Below are positions 13,772 through 30,532 of a stretch of 64,000 nucleotides of DNA, in pieces. The stretch's first letter is position 1. Every line of letters starts with the position of its first letter. The stretch is from Chlorella sorokiniana (lineage: Eukaryota > Chlorophyta > Trebouxiophyceae > Chlorellales > Chlorellaceae), in NCBI GenBank assembly GCA_025917655.1, contig CP084614.1, positions 2,480,001 to 2,544,000 of the forward strand. The letters are read 5' to 3'. The position numbers and the translations under genes are program-made. The notes under the pieces are model-generated. The model was given only the letters and a program-made list of their open reading frames with translations. It did no database searches and was not told the origin of the DNA.

Positions 13772-16102
13772 ATGGAGGATGACGAGCTCCCTGCGGCTCT
13801 AGAAGAGACTGCTGAGCCGCAGACGGTTTCCCAGGCTGTGGCTGCAACGGCGGGTGAGGCCTACGTGCGGGCGGGTGATTGGCAGTGGCAAAGCCGCTTG
13901 CGGTGGCAGCGACCTGCTGTGCGACGCGATTCCTCACTTCATGATGCAGCCGTCGCTCAGAATCCGCGGGCTCCCCGCCGTTGGCCTGGCCGTGCACCCC
14001 AACTTCGTCGGGGCCGCCAGTTGCTGCGTAGCCGACCGAGCCTGTCCCGTGTGGCTTCTTTCCCTGCTCCTCTCCTCCTTGCTCTCCCTTCTTGCGGGGT
14101 GTACAACAGCACCAGGCAAATGTGCATATTTCTCCAAGGCTGGCGCGATGCTCCTGCAGGCAACTCGTCGGGCAAGCGCAAGCCCGGGCGCCCGGCCTTG
14201 CACCATGGCTGCCAGGTCTGTGGCGGGGCCCTCGACCACTTGAAGCTCTTCCATCAGGTGAGATCCCCCGCCCACACACGCTTGTTTGAGCCGCACCCCT
14301 TGCCTGGTGCAGCAGCCGACAGGTGGCCGCCGTGTCGGGCGCCCCCGTCCGGCACACGGCTTTCCCCCGGCCAGGGCTGCCCCTTGCAGGCGGCTGCCTG
14401 TTGTGGCCCCCACCCCACCCCACCCACCTCTCAAACACGCGCCCTGTGTCGCAGCGGTACCACATCTGCATGGATTGCATGGCTCTGGAGAAGATTGTGG
14501 TGAAGGGTGTGGACTCCAGGTTCTGCCAGCAGGTGCGCGGCTGTGTCCAATTGCTGTGTCCAATTGCAATCGCAGCCAAATGGCTGCCAGCCAGCAGGGC
14601 TTTACGCCAAGCTCAGCCTGCCCTCCCGCCTCGCCCAGGCTCCCCCTGCCCAGCCTCCAGCCCTTTCCCCAGTTGTTACGCTACCCGCCGGCGCAGTGCG
14701 GTCGCTTCCACGAGCTGGAAGCGTTTGCCGCGGGCATGCGGTCGTGCCGAAGGCAGCTGGCAAAGCACGCTGAGCGGCGGCGCCGAGCGCGGGAGCTGGC
14801 AGCGATGGCGGCAGGGAAGGACGCGCGGCGGCGCCACGTGCAGGCACAGGGCAGCGGGGGCGCAGGGCATGCTGCGGCCGAGGCCTCCCAAGGTGGGGGG
14901 CTGGCGCTGCGCCGGCACGCTGGAACCTGTGCTGCTCCAGCTGCCCCCGCGGGTGTCGCCTCCTTTCACCCCCAGCCCACCTGCTGCCTGGAGGCTCATC
15001 AGAGGCAGGCGCTTGACCCTGTGTCTGCAGACGCGCTTGCCGGCGCCGCGGTGGAGTTGCAGCCCGAGGCCAAGCGCAGCCGTGGGCAGGAGGAAGGGAT
15101 GGGGAGGCGCCGCAGCCACGGGTGTCCTTGGACACACTGCTGGGCCACAGCCACCTGCCGCCCCTGCCCTGGCGCCTGCCCGATGCCGGCAGCGGCAGCG
15201 CCGGCAGCACCGCCCACCTCGCCCACGCCAGCGGGGACACCGGCGGCTTGCAGGCTTTGGTGGCGGCGGCGGAGGAGGAACACGAGGGCAGCGAGGCGGC
15301 GCGCGGCCATCCCAAGCTGCTGCCAGCGGCGGCAAGCAGCGCGCTCCCGCCGCTGCAGCTGCCGCAGGCCGGCGCCCACGCCTCCTTGCGCTTGGGGGCG
15401 GCGGCCGCCTGGCGGCCAGCCTGCCACCGCCAGCTTCAACTGGCGGCCTGCACGGTGCTGGGCTGCCGGCAGAGCCCCCACCCCCGCCTGGACCCGCACA
15501 GCCGCTGCTGGTGCGATCCCACAACGTCGTCCCGCAGCACAGCACTCAAATCCCCTACACGTCGCCACCTGGGCCGTCGCCACCGCAGCAGCAGCAGCAG
15601 CAGCCGTGGCCTGTGGGCGAGCAGAAGCTGGTGGACTTGGCAGGGGTGCTGTCGGCTCTCGGCGGCATGCCGGCAGGGGGTCAGGCCGTACAAGGCACCG
15701 CAACGCAGCAGGCCGTGCCCCAGGGGTCGCAGCAGCTTGCTGCGCTTGCGGCTGCCCTGTCGCAGGCAGCGAGCGAACACCAGCGGCGGCAGCAGGCCGA
15801 GCAGCAGCAGCAGCAGCAGCAGCAGTTGATGGCGGCGCTGGCAGCGCTCGTGCCGGCGCCCGCCCCCGCCGCCCCCAGCAGCAGCAGCCCTGCAACAGCT
15901 TTTGCAGCGGCTGGGGCAGCCTAGTGCCCCAACCGGGCCAGCACCCTCGGCGCCTCCCCTCGGGCAGCCATTGGCGGCGGCTCTCCCCACTCTTGCTGTG
16001 CCCACGCAGCAAGCACAGGGCAGTGCTGACCTGACAGCAGCGCTGTTCCAGTCGGCTGTGGGGGAGCTGCTGCTCAGCATCCTCGACAACCAGCAGCGCT
16101 GA
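13772..16102 (+). CDS. SBP-box (squamosa promoter-binding) transcription factor
   Basis: MEDDELPAALEETAEPQTVS begins exon 1. The SBP domain is split over three exons: RPALHHGCQVCGGALDHLKL (from 14159), RYHICMDCMALEKIVVKGVD with RFCQQ (from 14456), and CGRFHELEAFAAGM followed by RSCRRQLAKHAERRRR (from 14698). The second zinc site (CQQC, FH, SCR) and the basic nuclear signal are standard. The first site is unusual: C-x2-C replaces C-x4-C, and the later ligand is C-x2-C, as in SPL7, in place of C-x2-H. SBP factors bind GTAC cores in the nucleus; algal CRR1 and plant SPL7 control copper response. No ankyrin repeats are seen here. The long C-terminus is Gln/Ala/Pro-rich and low complexity. It passes through several frames in GC-rich runs and ends near 16102 with ADLTAALFQSAVGELLLSIL. 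Confidence 0.8.
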
Positions 16103-18104: not shown

Positions 18105-21100
18105 TCACGCCACCTGGGTGGCGTTGGCGCGCGGCGGCCGCATGGCGATGACCTTGACGAACCCGTCGGGAAGCTGCAGGCCCTGCTGCTGGCAGGCCTG
18201 CTGCGCATCCTCCACAGCAGAAATGTCCTGCAGGGCGCAACCGGGGTGGGCCAGAAGTGGGTGGCTGTGCCGTGACCAAGGCACCAGACTGTCGTCGAGC
18301 AGCCACCGCACAACGCATGAGGCACGCGCTGCGCTTGGCCAGCGGCCCAGCAGCCCAGAAGCAGCCGGCCTGCAGGCACCGCTGGCCCCGCTCTGCCGCT
18401 GGCTGCTTCTGCGGGCGTGAGCGGGCCCCAGCGCGGCTCGCCTGTGGAGTGAGGAAGATGAACTGCAGCTCCGCGTTCTCCCGCGCAAAGGCAAACAGGT
18501 TCTGCATGGCCACCCGCCGGTTGATGGCATCCATGAACTGCGAGCGCGGGAGGGGGATGAATCGGGGATTTCAGCAAACAACTCGGGGTGGGGTGGATTG
18601 CCACACACAATGCGAGAGGGGGCAGCTCGGGGTGGAATGCATGTGGGGTGTGGTGTGGCAATGGGCGGAAAGCGGGCTTTGTTATCCACTCTTTTTACCA
18701 CCCTTTCAACCACCCATACCCACAACCTCCTCACAACCTCTCAACTGCTCAGTGACCCATTCACCCCCACACCCACACACACACACACCCACACACCCAC
18801 ACACCCACACACACACCACCCACCACGTCGAACTCGTCCATGGCGCGAAAGGGCATCTCAGTGTGGCCCCCAGCGCCAGCGTGAAGGCCACGGTGGTGTA
18901 GGAGCGCTCGCCGCCAGAAAGCTGCGTGCGGGGGCGCGGGGCGGCGGTGGTGGTGGTGCGCATGCATGAGCGAGGGCTTTGAAACCAAAGGTCAGCATGG
19001 AAAGAGGTGCGCGGAGACTGTCTGGTGCAAAGGAGCACAGAAGGGCGAGCCGGGCCCCGGGGGCCCTGGCGGCGGACGCCCAGCCATGGAGGTTTGCAGC
19101 GGCTGCACGGAGGCAGGCAGGCAGCCGGTGGCAGCAGCACCAAGGGGCTTGCCTGCTTGAGGTCCTTGACGGCGCCGCCCTCCCTGCTGCCCTTGCTGCC
19201 AATCTGCACCTTCAGCTGCAGCGACTTTGCCCTGCGGTCCAGCTTGATGACGCCCTGCCGGGCGAGGAGTGTGAATAAGTATGTGTGTGTGTCTTGAGTG
19301 GTGTGTGTGTGTGTGTCTTGCAGTGCATGTGTGTTTTTGTGTCTTGGAGGGTGGTGGTGGTGTGTGGTGGTTTGTGTGGTGCGGGGGGGGCGCGCCAGGT
19401 AGGCGCGAAGCCACGCAGCCTGCAGGGCTCACCGAGTGGCCCTTCTTCCACATGTAGCTGCGGAACTTGGTGTTCACGAGCTGCTCCAGCCGGTGGTCCA
19501 GCTGTGGGTGGTGGGTTGGGCGGGTGGGGGTGGGTGGAAAGGGTGGGGAGGGGAAGGGAGGGGGTGGAAAGGGTGGGTGGACAGGGTTGGTATGGGTGGT
19601 GTGGTGTGGGGTGGGGCGAGGGAGGGGGTACATGCTGCAGACATGTGCCTTCAGGTTACGCAGCACAGCATACAAGGGTGATTGAAGCTGAAGAGGTTGC
19701 AAGGCGGCAGCGGCTGATACAAGCAGCCTCACCTCTGACAGCTTGCTGATGCGCAGGCTCAGTGCATCGTCTATGGCCTACGAGGTGATGGGGATGTGAA
19801 GTTGCGAGGTGTGGGATGCGTGCATGCACCTTGATGGGTGCGTGCTGGCGCAGGAGGCGCAGTCTGCGGCGGCACCAGTGTTGGCGGCACCGAGCAGTTG
19901 GCTGCATCCCCGCCTTGCGCCCAGCAAAGAAACGCAGCAAAGAGTACCCCCCAGCGCCCACCCCACCCCCACCCCACCCTATCCATGTCAGTCACAAAAC
20001 GCCTGTCATCATTCCCAGCACGAACACGCACCTCGAAGATGCCGATGGCCTCGCGCGCGCGGCGCCCGTCCCGCGCCATGCGCGCTGTGCTGGCCGCGTG
20101 CCGCTCCTGCAGCTCGGCCAGCGACCCGCCGGCGGCGCGCTCGTGCTCCCCGATCTTCTTCTCCAGGGCCCGCACCTTCTTCAGCAGCATCTGCAAGGGG
20201 TGGGTGGGGGTGGGGGTGGGGTGATGGGCTGCAGGGGAGTGCTGTTATTTGCAGCAGTGGAGGTGGAGGTGGGCATGGGACAAGCGCGGGAGGCACGTCA
20301 CCGTGCCTTAGGAGAGACCAGCTGCTTTCAGCCCCGCATCCGGGCAGCACGGCACCCCGACACACCAAAAGAACAGACAGGCAGTGGTCGCTGGCCAGTT
20401 TATTTACTACGTAAATTGAGAAATGGAGAAACTGCATTCCCCGATTGCATCCTACCTCAGCCGACAGCAGCAGCGCCAGCTCATCGTCACGCATCTGCCG
20501 CTTGGCTAGCAGCCGCGCCTCCACCGCCGCGCGCGCCTCCGCCGCCACCTCGCGCGAACACAGCTGCAGGGCGGCAGCATCGCACGGCTCAAGCAATCGA
20601 AGCGCAGCCGCTGTGTGTGTGTGTGTGTGTGTGTGTTTGGGCTTGACCTTTGGCACCGGTTGTGCCTGAAGCCGGGCCCCCTTCCCGCGCCCCAGCCCAC
20701 AGCGGCGGCCGCCAGAGGATGTTCCATCCTCCATCATCATGAAGGTCCCTGGCTGGCTGCAGTGCCGCACAGCACAGGCCCATCCCCCACCTGCTCCGCC
20801 CCTTCCTCCATCTCCGCCAGCTCATCGCACAGCTGCCCAGCAGTCGCCGCCAGCTGCCCCCGCTTGCCGCGCTGCTCCTCCGCAAATTCGACCGCCCGGC
20901 GCAGCCGCTCCTCCGCCGCCGCCAGCTGCTGCAGCTCCTCATGGTATGTGGCCAGGAAGGCGCTGTTCTCCTCGTTCAAGCGCCGGATCGCCCCGCTGCG
21001 CAGCCAACACGCAGGGGAGCAGGGGGCGCGAGGGTTACATGCAGGGATGAGGGAGCGCAGGCGGGGCGGGGTTCCTGCACATACACGCACGTGCATGGCC

Positions 21101-24100
21101 TGCCATAAATGGTGAGCAGTGATGGACCCCCTGCTGGCTGGCACGCAATGCGCCTGCAGTTTCCTGAAGCCACAGCCACCCGGAAAAGGCGCTGGTGGGC
21201 AGGCGACGCAACGCGGGGCAGCCGACTTTGCCGGGGCAGCAGCTGCCTCCCCAGCGCCCCCACGCACAGCTTCTCATGCAGCGCTGTCCCCGCCGCCGCC
21301 TTGGTTTCCGCGGCCGCCACGGCCGCCGCCTGCCTGTCGCGCAGCTGCTGCTCCAAGTCCAAGCACGCCTGAGTTGCCTGTGGGCAGTGAGGGAGGGGAT
21401 GAGGAGATGAATGAAAACACAAGAACAAACAAGAATCAGGAAGAGCTACAGCAGGAGAAGGGGCCCGCAGGCAAGAAATAACGCTGCTCTGTGGAGGGCG
21501 GAAGCTGCAGCCGGCGGCCAACAGTGCGTGATGCAAGATGGGAGCCGGGCAGCGGCCTGCCGCCCCACCTGCCAAATATCTGCCTGCGAGCCATCCTCGC
21601 CCCCGCCTGCGTGCCCGCAAGCAGCTCCGGCGGCGGCGCCTGCGTCAGCTGCGTCAGCGCCGCGCGCATCTCCCACTGCCGCCGCTTGCCCGCTGCTGCC
21701 GCCTGCCGCGCCTGCCGCTCCCGCGCATCGGCATGCTCCACCACCGCCGCCGCCTCTGCAAGCTGCTGCTCCAGCGCGGCCAGCTCTTGCCGTGCCCGCT
21801 GCGCTTCCGCCTCCAGCCCAGAAGTCTGCGATGGAGCACCACGATCTATCAGCACCCATAACCGACAGCGACGGCACGGGCAGCACCAGGCACCAGCAAG
21901 ACGTCCCGGTCAGGTCAGCAGCACCAACTCCCCCTCTCCAGAAGCTGTTGCCGCAGAGGCACGGCTGGCGACAGGTGGGAGGACACTATTCTGTCCGCCC
22001 ACACCTGGGGCCCCCCCCCATCCCCCGCCAAGCCCCCCCCCCCCCCCCACCTGCTGTGCGCAGCTGACGCCCAGGCTGGCATACTTCAGGTAGTACGGCG
22101 GCGGGATGGAGGTCTGGGTGGAGCCACGGCGGTAGAACTTGGAGCCATCGGGCGCATAGGCAGCCGCCACTCCGTGCGTCTGCCACGCCGCCATCTTGCA
22201 CTCCTCGGGCGTGGCGCCCAGCACCAGCCGTTCTGCGACAACGGCGGCAGCAGTCGGGGCTCAGCAATTGCGGCGACAGCGGCAACCGCTGCGGCAGCAT
22301 TTGCTTTGGCCGGAAGGGCTGGCAGGGAAGCCGTGCTGGGGAGCATGCCATGCCAGACTCTGCCCAGAGGTGCAGTGCACTCTGGAAATCAGTCAATCAG
22401 TCACTCCCGCGGAAGGGCTACGGTGCGGCGCCCCACCGATGTGTGCCTGGTCCACCAAGTTGTTCATGATGGGGCCCGCCACGCGGCGGTCGCCGCAGCG
22501 CAGCACCCGATACACGGTGGGCAGCTCGTAGGGGGGTGGCTGCCGGGCGGGATGGTGTGCTGCAGGGAGAGGCGGAGGAAAGGAGCGAGCTGCGCGGGCG
22601 TTGATAAGGCGTCGGTGAGGCGTGAGGAGCGGGCTTGCAGCCTGTTTGCTGACAATGCAGCTTCTGGAACGAGAGCGCAGGCAGCCTTGGCCCCCTCCTG
22701 CTTCTGCTCAAGCATCACCAACTGCTGTGCGCAAGCGCCACCTGTCGCACACGCGCCCTGCGCCCACACCCGCTCCCCGCCCACACCGACCCACCCACCC
22801 ACACCCACCCACCCGCCCCCACCTGCGGCGTGTCAAAGTTGACAACGTAGACCGCTGGCCTGATGCCTTGCCACCTGTGGCGGTTGATCATGCCACGCAG
22901 GAGCTGCGCGTCGCGCATGCTGTGCACCAAGAAAGCCTTGAGCTGCGCCCCAATGGCGGCCTCCACAGCCAGAGCAAACCTGCGGGCGGGTTGGGTGGGC
23001 CGCATGCGGGTGGCTCAGCGGGCTGCTGGTCGTGCGCTCCGCATGGGGGCTAGAAGGGGGTGGCTAGGGGATAAGACGTAATGTGGGAGGGTGGCTGGGG
23101 GTTGAGACGTAATGTGGGAGGGTGGCTAGGGGTCAAGACGTAGTGTGGGAGGGTGGCAAGGGATTGGGGTGGTGTGAAAAGACCGAGGGCAAGGCAAGGC
23201 GGTGCCGGACGCAGCATGCCCGGCAGGCACTTCCTGGCACACACGCCTTCCTGGCAGCTAGCGAGAAGGGCAGGAACATGCCAGGGGCACTTGGCCACTG
23301 AGGCGCAGCAGCAGCCCCCCCCAACCACACACACACACACACACACATTTGCAAACACACACATACACGCACACGCACACGCACACACACACGCACACAC
23401 ACCTGGCATCCTCCAGCGCCAAGTGCTGCCCCACGGGCCCGATGGGCGGCCGGCTGAACTGGCCCTTGGCCCGCGCCACCCCGCAACCAGCTCCACCATC
23501 GGCCTCCCCCAAAGTTGGCCACCTTGCTGCGCCCAGCCGCCCGCAGCTCTTGAACCTCCTGCTGCAGGCGCTTGATGTGGGCGTCGACCGCGGCGCACTG
23601 CTTGCGAAGGCTGTCGGCCTCCTCGTGCGCCCCTTTGGCGGCGTCGGCGGCATCCCGCAGCGCGGACTCCTGCTCCGCCAGCTCGTCGCGCAGCGCGTCG
23701 TCGGCGGCCTTGGCGGCGTCCACCTGGCGGTTGTACTGCTCGCAGGCCGCCTGGGTGGCCTGTACCGCCTCGTCCTTCACCTCCCGCACCGCACTCTCCA
23801 ACGTCTGCGGGCAGGAACACGCGTGTCAGCGCCAAGCGAAGCTGTAATTCAGACCGAGCATGGACGGCGCCGGCCCAGCTGGCCGGGCAGCCTGCAGATA
23901 GAAGCGGGTAAGGGCGGCGGCGGGCCGTGGCGCCGGCTGCTCGCCTCCTTGTGGCCCTGCGCATCGGCCAGCGCTTCCTGCAGCCGCTTGATCTTGGCCT
24001 GGGCCAGGTTCGCCTGCAGCAGAAGGGGGGCGGGAGCCAAGAACAGGGAAAGTCAGGGCAGGGGAGCCGGGCGGCAAGCAGCAGCGGCAGCTGGCGGCGG

Positions 24101-27100
24101 TTTCAGCCGCTCCTGGAGCGCCCAGCGGCTCCCCATTTGCGCGAAAGGTGGCCAAAGAACTCTGGCCACAGCTCGCCTGGCGGTGCGCCTCGCGCAGGTG
24201 CTGCTTCAGGCCTTCCCGCTCCGCCTCCAGGGCCGTGGCGCGCTCGGTGTACGCCGCAAGGAAGTGGCCCTGCAGGGAGGGTGGCAGCAGCGCGGTGCAC
24301 GCAGGCATCACAGGTCATCAAACGCATGCCACAAAATCACTTTCCCAGATCATCTAGTTTCCATCATTTCAAGCGGTAAAACAAAATCCTGATTCTGGGC
24401 ATCTTCCCGGCAGTCAAGCCAGCAGAGCAGCAGGACCTTCGCAGCTGTCCCGGACCCAGGCCCAGCAGCAGCAGCAGCAGCACCCCCACCTTGTCGTCCG
24501 TGGCCTGCCTCAGCGCGGCATGCTCCCGCCGCAGCTCCTCCGCCGCCGCCTCCGCCGCCGCCACGCGCTCCGGCATGGCCTCCAGCAGTTGTTGCGCTGC
24601 GGCAGCCGCCTTCTGGTGCTCCTCCACCATCGCCCAGGTCAGAACCTGCAGCGGGAGGGGGTGTTGCAGCAGCAGCGCAGGCGGCAGCAGTCGTTGCTGG
24701 GGGCTGGGGATGGCAGGGTGGGACGGACCGGCGACACAATTGCCTGGCTGCTCAGCACAGGGGCCCGTGTGACCAGCGGCCCAGCCCTGCGCGTGCAGAC
24801 GGAACACGCACCACTGCGACGGGCACCAGATAGCTGGCTCCCTGTTCCCGTCATCCCGTGCAAGCCTCCACCCAACCAGCCGCCGGCAATCTGCCTCCCA
24901 ACCACCAAGCTCCCCTCCCACTCAGCAGTCAGCTGCCCGCCGCTCTACACACCAACCGGCTTCCCCCTGCTGGCACCCTTGCAGCTGGCCTCCACCTCGC
25001 TTCCCACACACCCACCTGCTCCAGCTGCTCCACCTCGTCCCGCCAGGCCTGGATGCCCTCCAGCGCCGCAATCGACTTCTGCAGCTCAGCGTGCTCAGCG
25101 GCCATGGCGGCATACTCCTCTCGGATCTGCAGCCCAGCAGGAAGGCGGGGAGGCACCGGGCCAGGGAAGAAAGAACACTGTGTGTGCAGCTGATCCTTGA
25201 GGCGCAGCGTTGGCGAAGGAACGGAGAGGGTGGGGGCGCCGCGCTGAGGAAAGGACGGAGAGGATGGGGCGCGCTGCGCAGGGATCACGCCTCTGCACGG
25301 CAGCGCGGCCCCGGCGGCAAGGCTGGCGGACTCGGGCAAGGCCGCCGCCTGCCGCCTGCCTCACCTGCTCCACCTTCTCGTTCATGGCGCGGACTTGCTC
25401 CTTGGACACCTCCAGGCTGTAACTGATCTGTGGTGGGGAGACGGGGGGCATGCGCACACAGGGAGCAGTACAGGTGGGCGGCAGGGAGGCAGCCACACAG
25501 CCCTTCACGCGCCCAAGGCTGCAAAGCCCTGCAGCAGCAGCCGCATAAAGCAGCAGCGCCGGCACCTGCTCCAGGCTGGTGGCCTCCATGTACAGCTGGA
25601 ACTTCTCCTGGTCAGCCTGCGGCCGTGGACAGGACACCGCGGGGAGGAGACGGCAGCTGAGGGCGGAGGCAACCCTGGTGGTATCTACTCATCCTGTTTG
25701 GGGCCAGCGAGCACCCCCAGCACCCCCAAACAAGCCACCGTCAGGCAGCGGCAGCGAGCCTGGCGCACGCCCCCGACAGCACCTTGGTGCTGCTGCCCGC
25801 CAGGAAGTTGCGAGCGGTGTCCTGGGTCATGACACATACCTGCGGCCAGGGCAGCACATGCCAGCGGTCTGCTGCAGCTGCCGGTCCGGGTACGCAGGGA
25901 TCGCTCCGGAGGGAAGGACAACGCAGAGCAGCCTGTCGCAAGCAAGCGGAGAGCAGCAGCGCCAGCGGCACCTTGCCCCACCCACTTCATCCCACCCTGC
26001 AACCCACCGGGTTGGCGGCATTCAGGCCAAGCGTCTGCAGCATGGCATCGAGATCCTCACGCTTGCGGCCCTGGATCCTGCAGGACGCACAGGTGGGGCA
26101 GGGCGGAGCGCAGCGCGCGGCTCAGGCCCGATGCGGGGCCCACGATCTGCATGCATGCACCTGTGCGCTTGAACCAAGTCGGGAAGCGAGCCGGGCAAGG
26201 GTGAGCTGTCCGTGCTGCTGCCTGCGCCATGCATCGGTGCAAACCATGCGCTGGTGCATGTTGTGCAAGTGAGGAAAAGAGGCTCGCGTTGCCCCGTCGC
26301 AGCCGGCGCGCCTGCCGTGCTGGTCCTTCAGCAGGTAGGCTGAGGACTGGCCGATGCGCGAGATGTGGCGCTCCACGGTGATGGTGTCGCCAAACACGGC
26401 GTGGCGGAACCCGTCAAAGCCCTTGTACGGCTTGTTGTACACTGCAGGGTGCGCGGGCCAATGCATGTGTGTGTGAGCGGGGGAGGGGGTGGTGTGCGGA
26501 GTGTGTGTGGGGGCGGTCGGAGGGGAGGGGCACACGTTGCGAATGGAAGGGTGGCAGCCGGGCAGGAGTGGCAGAGGGGATGCACAGGCTGGCAGGGCAG
26601 CAAGCAAAGCACAGTGGCTCGGCAGGCTGAACGGACGTGGTGCAGGCCATTCAAGCGTACCTGTGACGCGGATCACCGCTTCATCTGCCCCAGTGCGGAT
26701 GAGCTGCACAGGCAGGGGGAGAAGGGGGAGGCAGCATTAACGGTGCACAGCAGCGGCACCACTGCACACGGCAGCCGAAAGAACAGAGCTTCCAGCGCCC
26801 ACGATGCATGGCCACAGCATGGCAGGCCGAGGCGGGCGCAGCTGCAGCCCGGCTTCCGCCCAGCTGCCGCGCACCTTCTGGAAGGACTTGGCGCGCCCGG
26901 TGGCGTTGGCACGCACGCCTAGGCAGCACTGCAGCGCCTGCAGCACCGCGCTCTTGCCGCTGCCGTTGGTGCCGCTGACAAAGGTCACGTGCTGCAGGGG
27001 TGGGGGCAGGTGCGCGTTGCAGACTGTGAGGCCTGCAGGAGGCGCTGGCAGGGCTGCCGCTGACCCTCCCCTGCCCAATCGCATGTAGTCGCCGCCTAGC

Positions 27101-27602
27101 AGGCTCACTGCCGCTGCTTAGACTGCCCAGCTCGATTTCAAAGCAGCTAAGCTGCCCCACCTGGCCAAAGTCCATAGAAAAGTTCTCGTGGCACATGAAG
27201 TTGATGATCTCGATGCTTTTCAGGTGGCCGGGCAGGCCGGTAGCGCGCATGCCGCCCTGCCCAAGCGGAACCGCTTCCTGCAGCTGGGGGGGAGGGGGCA
27301 GCGCTGGCAGCAAGCTGGGCACTGACGTTTGCCCGCCGCGCAGCCAGACAGCAGGCAACTGGACGCCCGTCCACCGCGCTGCAGCGCAGCCGCAGCAAGC
27401 GAGGCGGCGGGCGACGGGCAGCGGCTTGCCACCTGGCTTTCCGACGACATGCTGGCGGCGGCAGACGTAGCTCGCGGGTCTGCAGTGCGAATACCGAATC
27501 GCGCGCGGATGGCGGCGCCGTCTGCCCCCACCGCACCGCGCTTGGCGGCCCTCTGGCCCTCATACTCAAAGTCTGCATCCACGCGCCGCTTGCCCTCGCG
27601 CC
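18105..27602 (-). CDS. SMC6: SMC6, ATPase subunit of the SMC5/6 complex
   Basis: About 28 small exons give a full SMC protein. N-terminal head: LKSIEIINFMCHENFSMDFG, Walker A FVSGTNGSGKSAVLQAL (about 26990-26880), IRTGADEAVIRVT, VERHISRIGQSSAYLLKDQ, and Q-loop region NPV then CVMTQDTARNFLAGSS. Two coiled-coil arms follow (for example ELQKSIAALEGIQAWRDEVE). The hinge lies around 23500-22100, with FSRPPIGPVGQHLALEDAR, KAFLVHSMRDAQLLRGMIN and YYLKYASLG. C-terminal head: LVNTKFRSYMWKKGH, signature LSGGERSYTTVAFTLALG (about 18925), Walker B region MPFRAMDEFDV, FMDAINRRVAMQNLFAF, and a C-terminus ending RANATQVA with stop at 18105-18107. The FMCHE and DEFDV motifs separate SMC6 from RAD50 and other SMCs. 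It works in nuclear DNA repair and replication stress. Frame slips at G runs occur in the hinge and between LALG and HTEM. If not fused upstream, the start could be an in-frame ATG near 27451 (MSSESQ). Confidence 0.9.
18755..18830. repeat. CA-rich microsatellite in SMC6 intron
   Basis: Runs of (CA)n broken by CCC triplets lie between the DEFDV exon and the FMDAINRR exon. Confidence 0.7.
19280..19640. repeat. GT/GGGT-rich low-complexity tract in SMC6 introns
   Basis: GT microsatellites at about 19280-19380 and a G-tract-rich stretch at about 19500-19625 flank the short exon FRSYMWKKGHS. On the transcribed (minus) sense they are C-rich. Confidence 0.65.
23045..23165. repeat. 31-bp minisatellite in SMC6 intron
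   Basis: Three to four copies of a 31-bp unit containing GACGTAATGTGGGAGGGTGG, with small variants. It is intronic, next to the hinge-coding exons. Confidence 0.7.
23315..23403. repeat. AC-repeat microsatellite in SMC6 intron
   Basis: About 85 bp of (AC)n with scattered changes, ending at the exon that encodes the hinge stretch PPIGPVGQHLALEDAR. Confidence 0.7.
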
Positions 27603-27781
27603 TGCATGGCTTGCGGCGGGAAGGGGAGTGAGGAGGACGGCAGCAGCAGTGGTTTCATGGAGGCGGGAGTGCCCGTGGCACCTGCAGTATATTTATGGTA
27701 CCCCGGTACAGGCACGCAGCAGCATCGCAGAGATTTGCGCGGCACCGCTTCCGTTTGTTTGAAGTGAGGCACCAGCGGCGC

Positions 27782-28365
27782 TCACTTGCTGCGCCGCTCC
27801 TGGCTAGGCAGCGCCACGTTGCGGCTGCGCTCCGTGGCCTCGCCCAGCACGGCCGCCACAGGCCGGCGCTCGGGTTCTCTGCTGCTGCAGGCTGGGCCGC
27901 CGGCGTTCTCGTCGTTCTCGCCGCGGGCGCCTGCTGCCGCCGCGTCCGCTGCAAGCGCCTCCAGGAGGTCGCGGCGGCGCCGCTGCACGCCCTCCTTATC
28001 GACCAGGATCTCCTCCAGCTCTTCCGGGGTTATATCTTCTCCGTCACCATCCTCATACCTGTCCCGAAATGGGCCGAACACACCATGCTGCCGATGAACA
28101 TGACGGATGAAGGCAGACAGCTGAGAGCAGCCGTAATGCAACGTCGGTGTAGGCCGCCAGCCCGGCCCGCTCACCTGATGTGGAACAGCAGGGGCCACAC
28201 CACGCCCGCTCCATCCTTCACATTTGCAGTGACGCGCTGCACCACGCCCTTATAAGTCCCTCCAGGCTCGCTCAGGTCCGGGTTAGGGCTGAAGAACTTG
28301 CTGACCTCGGCTCCCAAGTACACGGCCCTTGCCTGTTTGACCGTGATCATAGCGAATGCAGACAA
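27782..28365 (-). CDS. Tudor/Agenet-like domain unit, possibly the true N-terminus of SMC6
   Basis: Exon 1 (28365-28173) reads MSAFAMITVKQARAVYLGAE, VSKFFSPNPDLSEPGGTYKG and VWPLLFHIR up to CAG|GTGAGC. Exon 2 (from about 28057) reads YEDGDGEDITPEELEEILVD, then a charged tail ending PSQERRSK. The pattern of an altered-by-G/TYKGVV strand followed by (H/V)xYEDGDxEDIxxEEL is typical of Tudor/Agenet-like chromatin-reader folds in plant and algal proteins. The apparent stop sits inside a perfect donor, AA|GTGAGC. Splicing to the acceptor at 27602 keeps the frame and gives SKREGKRRVDADFEYEG, leading into SMC6. So this may be a separate protein of about 160 residues or the N-terminal domain of SMC6. 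It faces the Rieske gene across about 250 bp. Confidence 0.55.
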
Positions 28366-28614
28366 GCAGGGGTTTACGGGCCAAGGTGCGCCGCACTGGG
28401 GAGTTCCAATTCAAGCACTTGAACCACCCCTAACAACATACAGACCGCGAGCCCTGCAATCGCATGAATGGGTCCGGATGAGATGTCAGCCATTGGCCGA
28501 GGCTGACATCGACCCCCGTCAACCATAGGCAGGGTCCCTTTCTTCTGCTGCCAATCTCCATTCAGCAACGCCCATTACCGCAGTCAGTCTATTGTTAACG
28601 TCGATAACATCCAT
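28366..28614. promoter_or_regulatory. Short bidirectional promoter region
   Basis: Only about 250 bp separate the minus-strand Tudor/SMC6 start from the plus-strand Rieske start, so the two genes probably share a promoter. I see no clear TATA box or named element. Confidence 0.5.
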
Positions 28615-29820
28615 ATGAACTCATCCATCATGGTGGCCACTGCTTTTGCTGTCCGCCCCGCTGTGGCGACCCGCCCCACCGCTCGCCGCTCCTCCCTGCG
28701 CGTTCAGGTGAGCACATTCATGCGGATGACAATGGGTACTGGTCGACAGCCCGTCAGTCGATGGCTTGGCGACGGGCTCAGCCGAGGGCTAGGAGGGTTC
28801 TGGGAACTGCAGCGCCCAGTCTTTTGGCTGCACAGCAACATTGCGTGCACGATGTGGCGGGTGGTTGTGCTGAGATCCGGTGCTAGGGACGATGGCGGTC
28901 CTGCCCCACTGGAACATGCACGGTGGCAGCGCCGCCGCCGCATTCCAGTCTTCCCTCAGCTGGTCCCTTCGAGCAAGTCCTTCGCTCACAGTGTTGGCAC
29001 TCTTGTTCTTGAATCATTTGTTGTTAAAATCCTGCTGCAGGCGGCATGGACCAGCACCGGCGTGAAGGACTTTGAGCTGGGCAGCGCTGGCGGCAAGAAG
29101 GTGGGCATTCCCTTGCGGCTGCAGGCCTGTGTTCCTGTGCTGCCCGGAACACTTTAGCTTGCTGTCTGAAGTTGCGTGTCTGCTGCTGGTGCGGTTTGCT
29201 CACTTTAGACGGCTCCCTTGTATTGCGCCCTGTGCACAGGTGGTGGAGATTGACGGCCAGCGCGTCCTGCTGGCGGCAGTGGGCGAGGAGGTGCGGGCAG
29301 TGAGCAACAAATGCTCCCATCTGGGCTTGCCGCTCGTGGGCAAGACGGCGCTGCTGCAAGGCGAGGTCGCCAACGGGTGAGGCCTCGCTGTCGGGAGGAC
29401 GGAACCGCCTTGGTTGTGGTTGCTGCTTGGCTTGCAAGCGCTGGAGAGCCCCGCCACCCTGCCCGACAGCTCTCTGCCTCACGCATGCCCTGCGCCATGC
29501 AGGTGTGTCACCTGCCCCGCCCACGGCACCAAGTTCGACCTGACCACCGGACAGCCAGTGGGCGAGTGGTGCCCCAAGATGCCTTCCCTGCCTTTTGTGC
29601 GTCGCTGCTCGCACTGTGGCCATACTAAGGCTACATGGCCCTCCGTTTCCACCGCCCGTGCCCTTGCGGGGTGCCCTTACAGGACGCCCTTCCAGGATGA
29701 TGTCTGCGTGGAACAACTGCCTCCTCCGCGCAGGTCGGCAAGATTGGTGACACGCCCAAGCCGCTTCCCACCTTTGAGGCACGCATCGCGGAGAGCGGCG
29801 AGATCGAGGTCAACGTCTGA
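28615..29820 (+). CDS. Plastid Rieske-type [2Fe-2S] protein
   Basis: Five exons. Exon 1 (28615-28708) gives MNSSIMVATAFAVRPAVATR and a basic Ser/Arg stretch, a good chloroplast transit peptide. Then WTSTGVKDFELGSAGGKK (29041-29100), VVEIDGQRVLLAAVGEEVRA with SNKCSHLGLPLVGKTALLQG (from 29240), CVTCPAHGTKFDLTTGQPVG (from 29503), and VGKIGDTPKPLPTFEARIAE to the stop at 29818-29820. Cluster ligands C-x-H and C-x2-H are intact. All splice sites are GT-AG and all exons join in frame, making this one of the few error-free genes here. The mature protein of about 120 residues has no membrane segment, so it is a soluble Rieske ferredoxin, not the cytochrome b6f Rieske subunit. The plant/algal protein PSB33/TEF5 is a possible relative. 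Confidence 0.85.
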
Positions 29821-30532
29821 GTGCCTGCTCCGGCGCTCAACTGTCGGTGGCGATGCCCAGCTTGCCCGCCTGTCGTGGATGGCTGCCGAGCGCCTCTGGC
29901 CGAGCGCCGCTACCTCTGGCCGAGACAACTCTGATGCGCCCGCCTGTGGATTTTTGAACCTTGCTGTTTTCCATTGTCTGCCTCTGCACCACGAGAAGAA
30001 AACTTTCGACTGTGCCATCTCCTTAACCTTTCTGCTGACACCAGCAGCCGACAATACAAGGGTGTGCAGCCAAGGTTGTGCGGCGGTACTCCCGCGCGTC
30101 TGAGGTGTGCCTATTTGCGAGCGCTGCGACTGCCTAGGAGGTCCGCATTCTCTCTCTGCAGTCTGGAAACTTCAAGATGGATGCCAAGTGACAAGAAGCT
30201 TTGACTGGCCCCGATCGCATCGCTGGTGAGCAGCGCTGCAGGCACGCGGCTCCATCATGCATACCATTGGCATGGCCGTGAGACATCGCTATCCCCGCTG
30301 GCCGCCTGCCGTCCTGCCTGCTGCCTTGGGCGGCTTATGCCACTTCTGCGGGGGCGTGGGGAACCTCGTCAGATCAGTAACGGGTTATGTGCGCCTTTAC
30401 AATGCTGTGGGCCATCGCTTAACTGAGAGGGCCCCTCCACCACTGCCCGCCGTGCCCCCTCGCGTACTCTGTGGCGCTGCTCACTCGCTGCGCATCCTTT
30501 GCTGCAGGGGCTAGGGCTAGGAGCGGGGCGCC
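29821..30532. other. Intergenic between Rieske gene and E3 ligase gene
   Basis: 3' flank of the Rieske gene and upstream region of the E3 gene. Short open frames only; an additional 5' exon of the E3 gene could hide here. Confidence 0.35.

Follow-up and report, generated by a model that had tools for sequence, protein, structure and literature searches.

A probable fusion of a Tudor domain to SMC6 in the green alga Chlorella sorokiniana, with a second SMC6-like gene elsewhere in the genome

We analyzed a window of 64,000 nucleotides from Chlorella sorokiniana (GenBank assembly GCA_025917655.1, contig CP084614.1, positions 2,480,001 to 2,544,000 of the forward strand), which lies on the contig referred to here as C6 and has a GC content of about 0.66; for genome-wide searches, 38.8 Mb in 15 contigs were covered. 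On the minus strand of the window, a unit with similarity to Tudor domains precedes an SMC6 gene, and the initial annotation had suggested that the two are joined. The features of the locus, in window coordinates, are as follows.

28630..30191, plus strand: divergent neighbor with a putative Rieske-like sequence (gene-finder parse and translation)
28175..28350, minus strand: exon 1 of the predicted Tudor-SMC6 gene, MITVKQARAVYLGAEVSKFF...PLLFHI, carrying the N-terminal half of the Tudor domain (direct reading)
28059..28174, minus strand: intron within the Tudor domain, AG/GTGAGC ... ACAG/G (direct reading)
27786..28058, minus strand: predicted exon 2, YEDGDGEDITPEELEEILV, completing the Tudor domain and continuing as a charged linker to ...SQERRS(K)
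27602..27785, minus strand: putative junction intron, 184 bp, AA/GTGAGC ... ATGCAG/G
27688..27696, minus strand: AT-rich motif ATAAATATA, put forward earlier as a possible TATA box if SMC6 is a gene of its own
27433..27601, minus strand: predicted exon 3, REGKRRVDADFEYEGQRAAKRGAV...MSSESQ, charged linker with basic clusters
27433..27450, minus strand: rival SMC6 start MSSESQ, with its ATG at 27450 (start context)
26875..27277, minus strand: SMC6 head, GHLKSIEIINFMCH and Walker A motif GTNGSGKSAV, in exons 27277-27161 and 26991-26875 (phmmer against solved structures)
18105..27277, minus strand: SMC6 body with coiled coils, hinge and C-terminal head (LSGGERS, DEFD) (tblastn, gene-finder parse and alignment)

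Read on the minus strand, segments 28350-28175 and 28058-27786 give MITVKQARAVYLGAEVSKFFSPNPDLSEPGGTYKGVVQRVTANVKDGAGVVWPLLFHIR/YEDGDGEDITPEELEEILVDKEG..., and exon 3 opens at 27601 in the right phase with REGKRRVDADFEYEGQRAAKRG...MSSESQ; the reading frame across the junction between the Tudor unit and exon 3 is SKREGKRRVDADFEYEG...MSSESQ. The in-frame TGA at 27784-27782, described previously as lying within a splice donor, does fall by direct reading inside the junction donor AA/GTGAGC, which begins at 27785, and the intervening intron, estimated at about 180 bp, measures 184 bp. The acceptor that was proposed to follow the Tudor unit is in the right phase, with the correction that the exon starts at 27601 rather than 27602. 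A second in-phase intron, from 27432, connects exon 3 to the SMC6 head, where two tandem acceptors lie 6 bases apart; one gives the entry at LQEAVPLG (27283) that had been annotated, and the other gives EAVPLG (27277). Neither junction splice site stands out among those used in this genome (the donor scores 5.9, at the 65th percentile, and the acceptor 5.8, at the 47th), and the intron within the Tudor domain pairs a donor at the 100th percentile (7.43) with an acceptor at the 12th (2.97). The SMC6 body runs to a predicted gene end at about 18105, the last exons being approximate, and the plus-strand neighbor at 28630..30191 sets the upstream limit of the gene. The Tudor-SMC6 and Rieske-like genes diverge from a short gap of 279 bases (28351-28629), which might act as a shared promoter. 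Elsewhere in the window, 13772-16102 on the plus strand encodes a predicted protein that presumably resembles an SBP-box transcription factor.

Comparison of the window head with solved structures by phmmer gave matches to SMC6 at E values of 9.9e-29 to 2.5e-28, the best SMC5 match being at 9.2e-6, and on this evidence the window protein is an SMC6, with SMC5 and the remaining SMC proteins more distant from it. The Walker A motif GTNGSGKSAV, LSGGERSYTTVAF (signature LSGGERS) and FRAMDEFDVFMD (Walker B/D-loop DEFD) align with approximate human and Arabidopsis SMC6 sequences, the human one also serving as the tblastn query; exon ends around DEFD were hand-edited for this alignment, and the same letters are present in the tblastn matches. 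Like the SMC6 proteins of human, yeast and Arabidopsis, the window protein has a head, a hinge, LSGGERS and DEFD, and they are its best match among solved structures. It differs from them in that its model carries a Tudor domain and has about 222 residues ahead of GHLKSI of the head, compared, by alignment positions in the structure search, with 45 in human and 79 in yeast SMC6. To our knowledge, no known SMC6 contains a Tudor domain.

The upstream module had been described as Tudor-like, and this assignment is upheld. As an isolated 82-residue sequence, it matched the Pfam family PF21743 (PTM_DIR17_Tudor) with 29.1 bits (E 8.8e-7), which passes the Pfam cutoff of 27.2; inside a 247-residue fusion the score was 26.2 bits, just below that cutoff, and exon 2 alone scored 24.9 bits in the genome-wide search. 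The alignment covers only profile positions 26 to 48 of 48, at residues 55 to 77. The Pfam search listed no Agenet match to the unit, and a search of solved structures with the unit gave no match of any kind up to an E value of 10. The sequence retains a YEDGDGED core and several aromatic residues. It resembles the PTM/DIR17-like Tudor proteins of plants in exceeding the family cutoff as an isolated domain and departs from them in being probably joined to SMC6 and in matching only the second part of the profile.

A Tudor paralog on contig C4 is interrupted by an intron at the corresponding position; there too the donor is GTGAGC and contains a TGA that would end the frame if left unspliced. 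When spliced by eye, the paralog matches the whole PF21743 profile with 50.6 bits. Exon 1 of the window gene resembles this paralog by eye; BLASTP aligned residues 55 to 82 only (57% identity, E 5e-4). The profile match and the shared intron position make the Tudor unit and its intron credible. They are also our reason for accepting exon 1, whose coding score is near zero (+0.3 nats) and whose start context at 28350 is weak (5th percentile); exon 2 scores +22.0 nats under a gene-finder model with the locus left out. The genome-wide PF21743 search returned 10 matches, one of them above the cutoff, and because such domains are split by introns, this count is a lower bound. Among other Tudor-like sequences, several matches cluster in long open frames at C3:2366558-2368568 (plus strand), possibly a multi-Tudor protein. 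In the gene-finder model of the C4 paralog (about 1823226-1821840, minus strand), the Tudor sequence is followed by a match to endoribonuclease L-PSP of the RidA type (PF01042; 26.6 bits, narrowly short of the cutoff of 27.3); the model is either another Tudor fusion or an erroneous join.

Whether the Tudor unit and SMC6 belong to one gene turns largely on exon 3. Its first 151 bases, 27601-27451, ahead of MSSESQ, score +15.1 nats as coding sequence when read in the SMC6 frame, against −11.2 and −25.7 nats for the two remaining frames. Among 4,000 random 151-base segments not called coding, 1,678 were open in the chosen frame and a single one reached +15.1 nats, a score that none of 92 stretches upstream of called starts attained; both controls are partly circular, as the finder itself defines what is noncoding. 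The linker exon is not of low complexity by eye. Exon 3 contains no in-frame ATG ahead of 27450, and the upstream stop ends at 27655. Since these 151 bases are coding-like and lack an in-frame start codon, SMC6 must begin further upstream, and on the sequence the Tudor unit is the best candidate for its upstream exon or exons. Speaking against the fused model, similarity of the linker to the N termini of other SMC6 proteins was undetectable, with 204 of 500 shuffles scoring as well against the N terminus of the SMC6 on contig C9 (see below) and 190 of 500 against that of human SMC6.

The gene finder used here is a simple hidden Markov model trained on 264 kb around the locus; it was seeded by five short segments of the same SMC6 gene and had no fusion prior. 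Its unprompted best parse splices 27786 to 27601. A two-gene parse was worse by 21.1 to 21.9 nats under the full model and by 16.6 nats when the locus was left out of the last training (retraining without 4 of 92 genes around it), and forcing the junction intron to be intergenic cost 21.9 nats under the full model. Among 24 further SMC6 introns that were tested, 11 are less well supported than this, as are 40% of 180 other introns sampled from 347 eligible ones, so that the support is typical of introns in this genome. The preference for fusion comes mainly from the coding-like 151 bases before MSSESQ. At the 5' end, a point against the model is that the finder gives a slight edge, 1.4 to 1.9 nats, to a start at 28101 or 28086, either of which would leave out Tudor exon 1.

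The reliability of the finder was checked on 10 other predicted proteins, the second to eleventh largest (the largest, of 1,818 residues, was excluded), and wrong fusions, judged by sequence reading, are apparent in 3 of them: putative phosphate carrier/LURP-one-like, fasciclin-like/ankyrin and thioredoxin-like/RAD17-like joins. The joints of the first two are weakly supported (−2.3 and −3.7 nats), and that of the third stands at −21 nats within a low-complexity, very GC-rich stretch. As the thioredoxin-like/RAD17-like joint is strongly supported and yet apparently wrong, a high score alone does not prove a fusion. For the fusion put forward in the initial annotation, the favored gene model (16.6 to 21.9 nats) and the coding linker count in favor, and the false joins made by the same finder count against.

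The principal alternative is that the locus holds separate genes, one for a small Tudor protein that terminates with the TGA at 27784-27782 and one for an SMC6 starting at MSSESQ (27450) with its own promoter near the AT-rich motif. The context of the ATG at 27450 is good (score 7.0, at the 89th percentile for called starts) and better than that at 28350, although this context is already counted within the two-gene score. The 331-base gap between the two units would not be odd, since 18 of 40 tandem gene pairs in the parse are no further apart, and the false fusions just described also speak for separate genes. The AT-rich motif at 27696-27688 leans slightly towards a promoter: of 605 called introns, 13 contain a run of at least nine A/T bases, and of 92 stretches of 400 bases preceding called starts, 7 do, or 0.10 and 0.19 per kb, a roughly twofold difference by which the suggested TATA box is promoter-like only weakly. 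The absence of TGTAA between the Tudor unit and SMC6 is uninformative, because within 350 bases of called stops TGTAA was not enriched (13 of 64 on the sense strand and 12 of 64 on the antisense strand). Against these points, a separate SMC6 gene would have to treat as 5' untranslated sequence 151 bases that are open, in phase and coding-like and have no start codon of their own; the stop of the Tudor frame falls within a good donor whose phase is precisely the one that the next exon requires; and the parse falls 16.6 to 21.9 nats below the fused one. We therefore regard two genes, the alternative that had been offered from the outset, as unlikely.

The coding-like linker exon, which requires an upstream start, could also be served by a first exon unrelated to the Tudor unit, for instance a mini-exon at 27725-27702 or an exon spliced past the Tudor unit, the Tudor protein then being another gene. 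When the linker is kept coding and 27780-27728 is required to be free of genes, the best parse splices 27725-27702 to 27609 and scores 23.5 nats less than the fused parse, and we consider this arrangement very improbable. The fused gene model is in our assessment the better reading of the sequence than separate genes, and we conclude that the Tudor domain and SMC6 are probably encoded in one gene.

A second SMC6-like gene was identified on contig C9, on the minus strand from about 1485194 to beyond 1477103, its C-terminal end lying outside the region read. Its head matches SMC6 best (E 4.9e-23), and its model opens with MTKYRAQHGYDSDVSD and has a long charged N terminus. The first 302 residues of this model gave SMC/AAA matches and no Tudor match in Pfam up to an E value of 1, and none of the 10 genome-wide PF21743 matches lies on C9, where the sequence was read to about 300 bases upstream of the modeled start; a Tudor exon still further upstream would lie outside this model. 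A third SMC6 was not found among the genome search matches. In a four-sequence test, the two algal copies group together against human and Arabidopsis SMC6 (12 sites versus 8 and 5), a maximum likelihood tree agrees, and the branch of the C9 copy is the longer of the two; the human and Arabidopsis sequences were approximate, and four sequences cannot date the duplication.

We hypothesize that a single minus-strand gene, from 28350 to about 18105, encodes a Tudor-SMC6 protein in which a Tudor domain at residues 10 to 78 or so would be followed by a linker of about 145 residues with basic clusters, by the SMC6 head from about residue 223 and by the remainder of a complete SMC6 ATPase. The linker is charged and probably flexible. 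Tethered in this way to the SMC6 head, the Tudor domain would most likely serve to keep SMC6 on nucleosomes that bear a particular methyl mark. Its ligand might be the methylated tail of a histone or some other methylated protein, and binding would lengthen the stay of this form of SMC5/6 on marked chromatin, with the Tudor domain of plant MSH6 as the nearest precedent. Two forms of SMC6 with different targeting may then divide the work, as do MSH6, which has a Tudor domain, and its Tudor-less counterpart MSH7 in plants.

The reading of methyl or histone marks by the window domain is argued from the behavior of other Tudor domains, and the compound proposal, a fusion whose Tudor domain also reads methylation, stands in our view at about an even chance. 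A smaller but appreciable possibility is that the fusion is real and its Tudor domain binds DNA or a protein partner, or only positions the SMC6 N terminus. Only half of the Tudor profile is aligned, and the several basic clusters in the linker could bind DNA or serve as nuclear signals, both of which would suit such a role; the conserved YEDGDGED core and aromatic residues point the other way, as does the reported recruitment of MSH6 and PDS5C to H3K4me1 through their Tudor domains (PMC13361950, PMC12292046).

In MSH6, the Tudor domain is N-terminal. PDS5C is a cohesin-associated factor rather than, like SMC6, an SMC ATPase. The plant MSH6 Tudor domain is reported to bind H3K4me1 and to bring mismatch repair to gene bodies (PMC12292046, PMC13361950), MSH7 is described as an ancient MSH6 duplicate without a Tudor domain (PMC12292046), and PDS5C is presented as a Tudor-mediated link of H3K4me1 to repair (PMC13361950). 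The likeness to PDS5C thus lies in this link, and that to MSH6 in the pairing of a Tudor-bearing DNA repair ATPase with a Tudor-less duplicate (PMC12292046); MSH6 belongs to another repair machine, and the window domain is by Pfam of the PTM/DIR17 type, which may or may not be close to the MSH6 Tudor domain. Elsewhere on C6, a weak MSH6-type Tudor match (1060863-1060958, plus strand; E 0.0076, with an approximate query) precedes MutS_V matches (1067790-1068885, plus strand) by about 7 kb, and this pair may represent a Tudor-bearing MSH6 with the same arrangement as in plants.

An SMC6-Tudor fusion was not found among the open-licence papers listed, judging by titles and abstract openings. Relatives were likewise absent from viral_contigs (viral sequences), and genome_contigs (bacterial and archaeal sequences) yielded one ordinary bacterial SMC; algae are not expected in either collection. 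Pending transcript evidence, SMC6-Tudor would constitute a new domain arrangement of a known machine.

How SMC5/6 locates its sites on chromatin is still debated. We tentatively suggest that this alga may have two SMC5/6 machines: the SMC6 of the first would be plain, and that of the second would contain a built-in histone methylation reader, steering it to marked, perhaps transcribed, chromatin; this could be a split like that of MSH6 and MSH7, arisen independently in another repair system, a parallel that we hold with the same reserve. If true, the coexistence of an SMC6 that has its own reader and a paralog that lacks it would offer a natural experiment on SMC5/6 steering: exchange or removal of the Tudor domain would reveal directly whether the complex can be steered by a chromatin mark. 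It would also suggest that Tudor domains were gained more than once by repair proteins of the green lineage (MSH6 and SMC6), and, if RNA confirms the join, a new way of guiding SMC5/6 along chromosomes.
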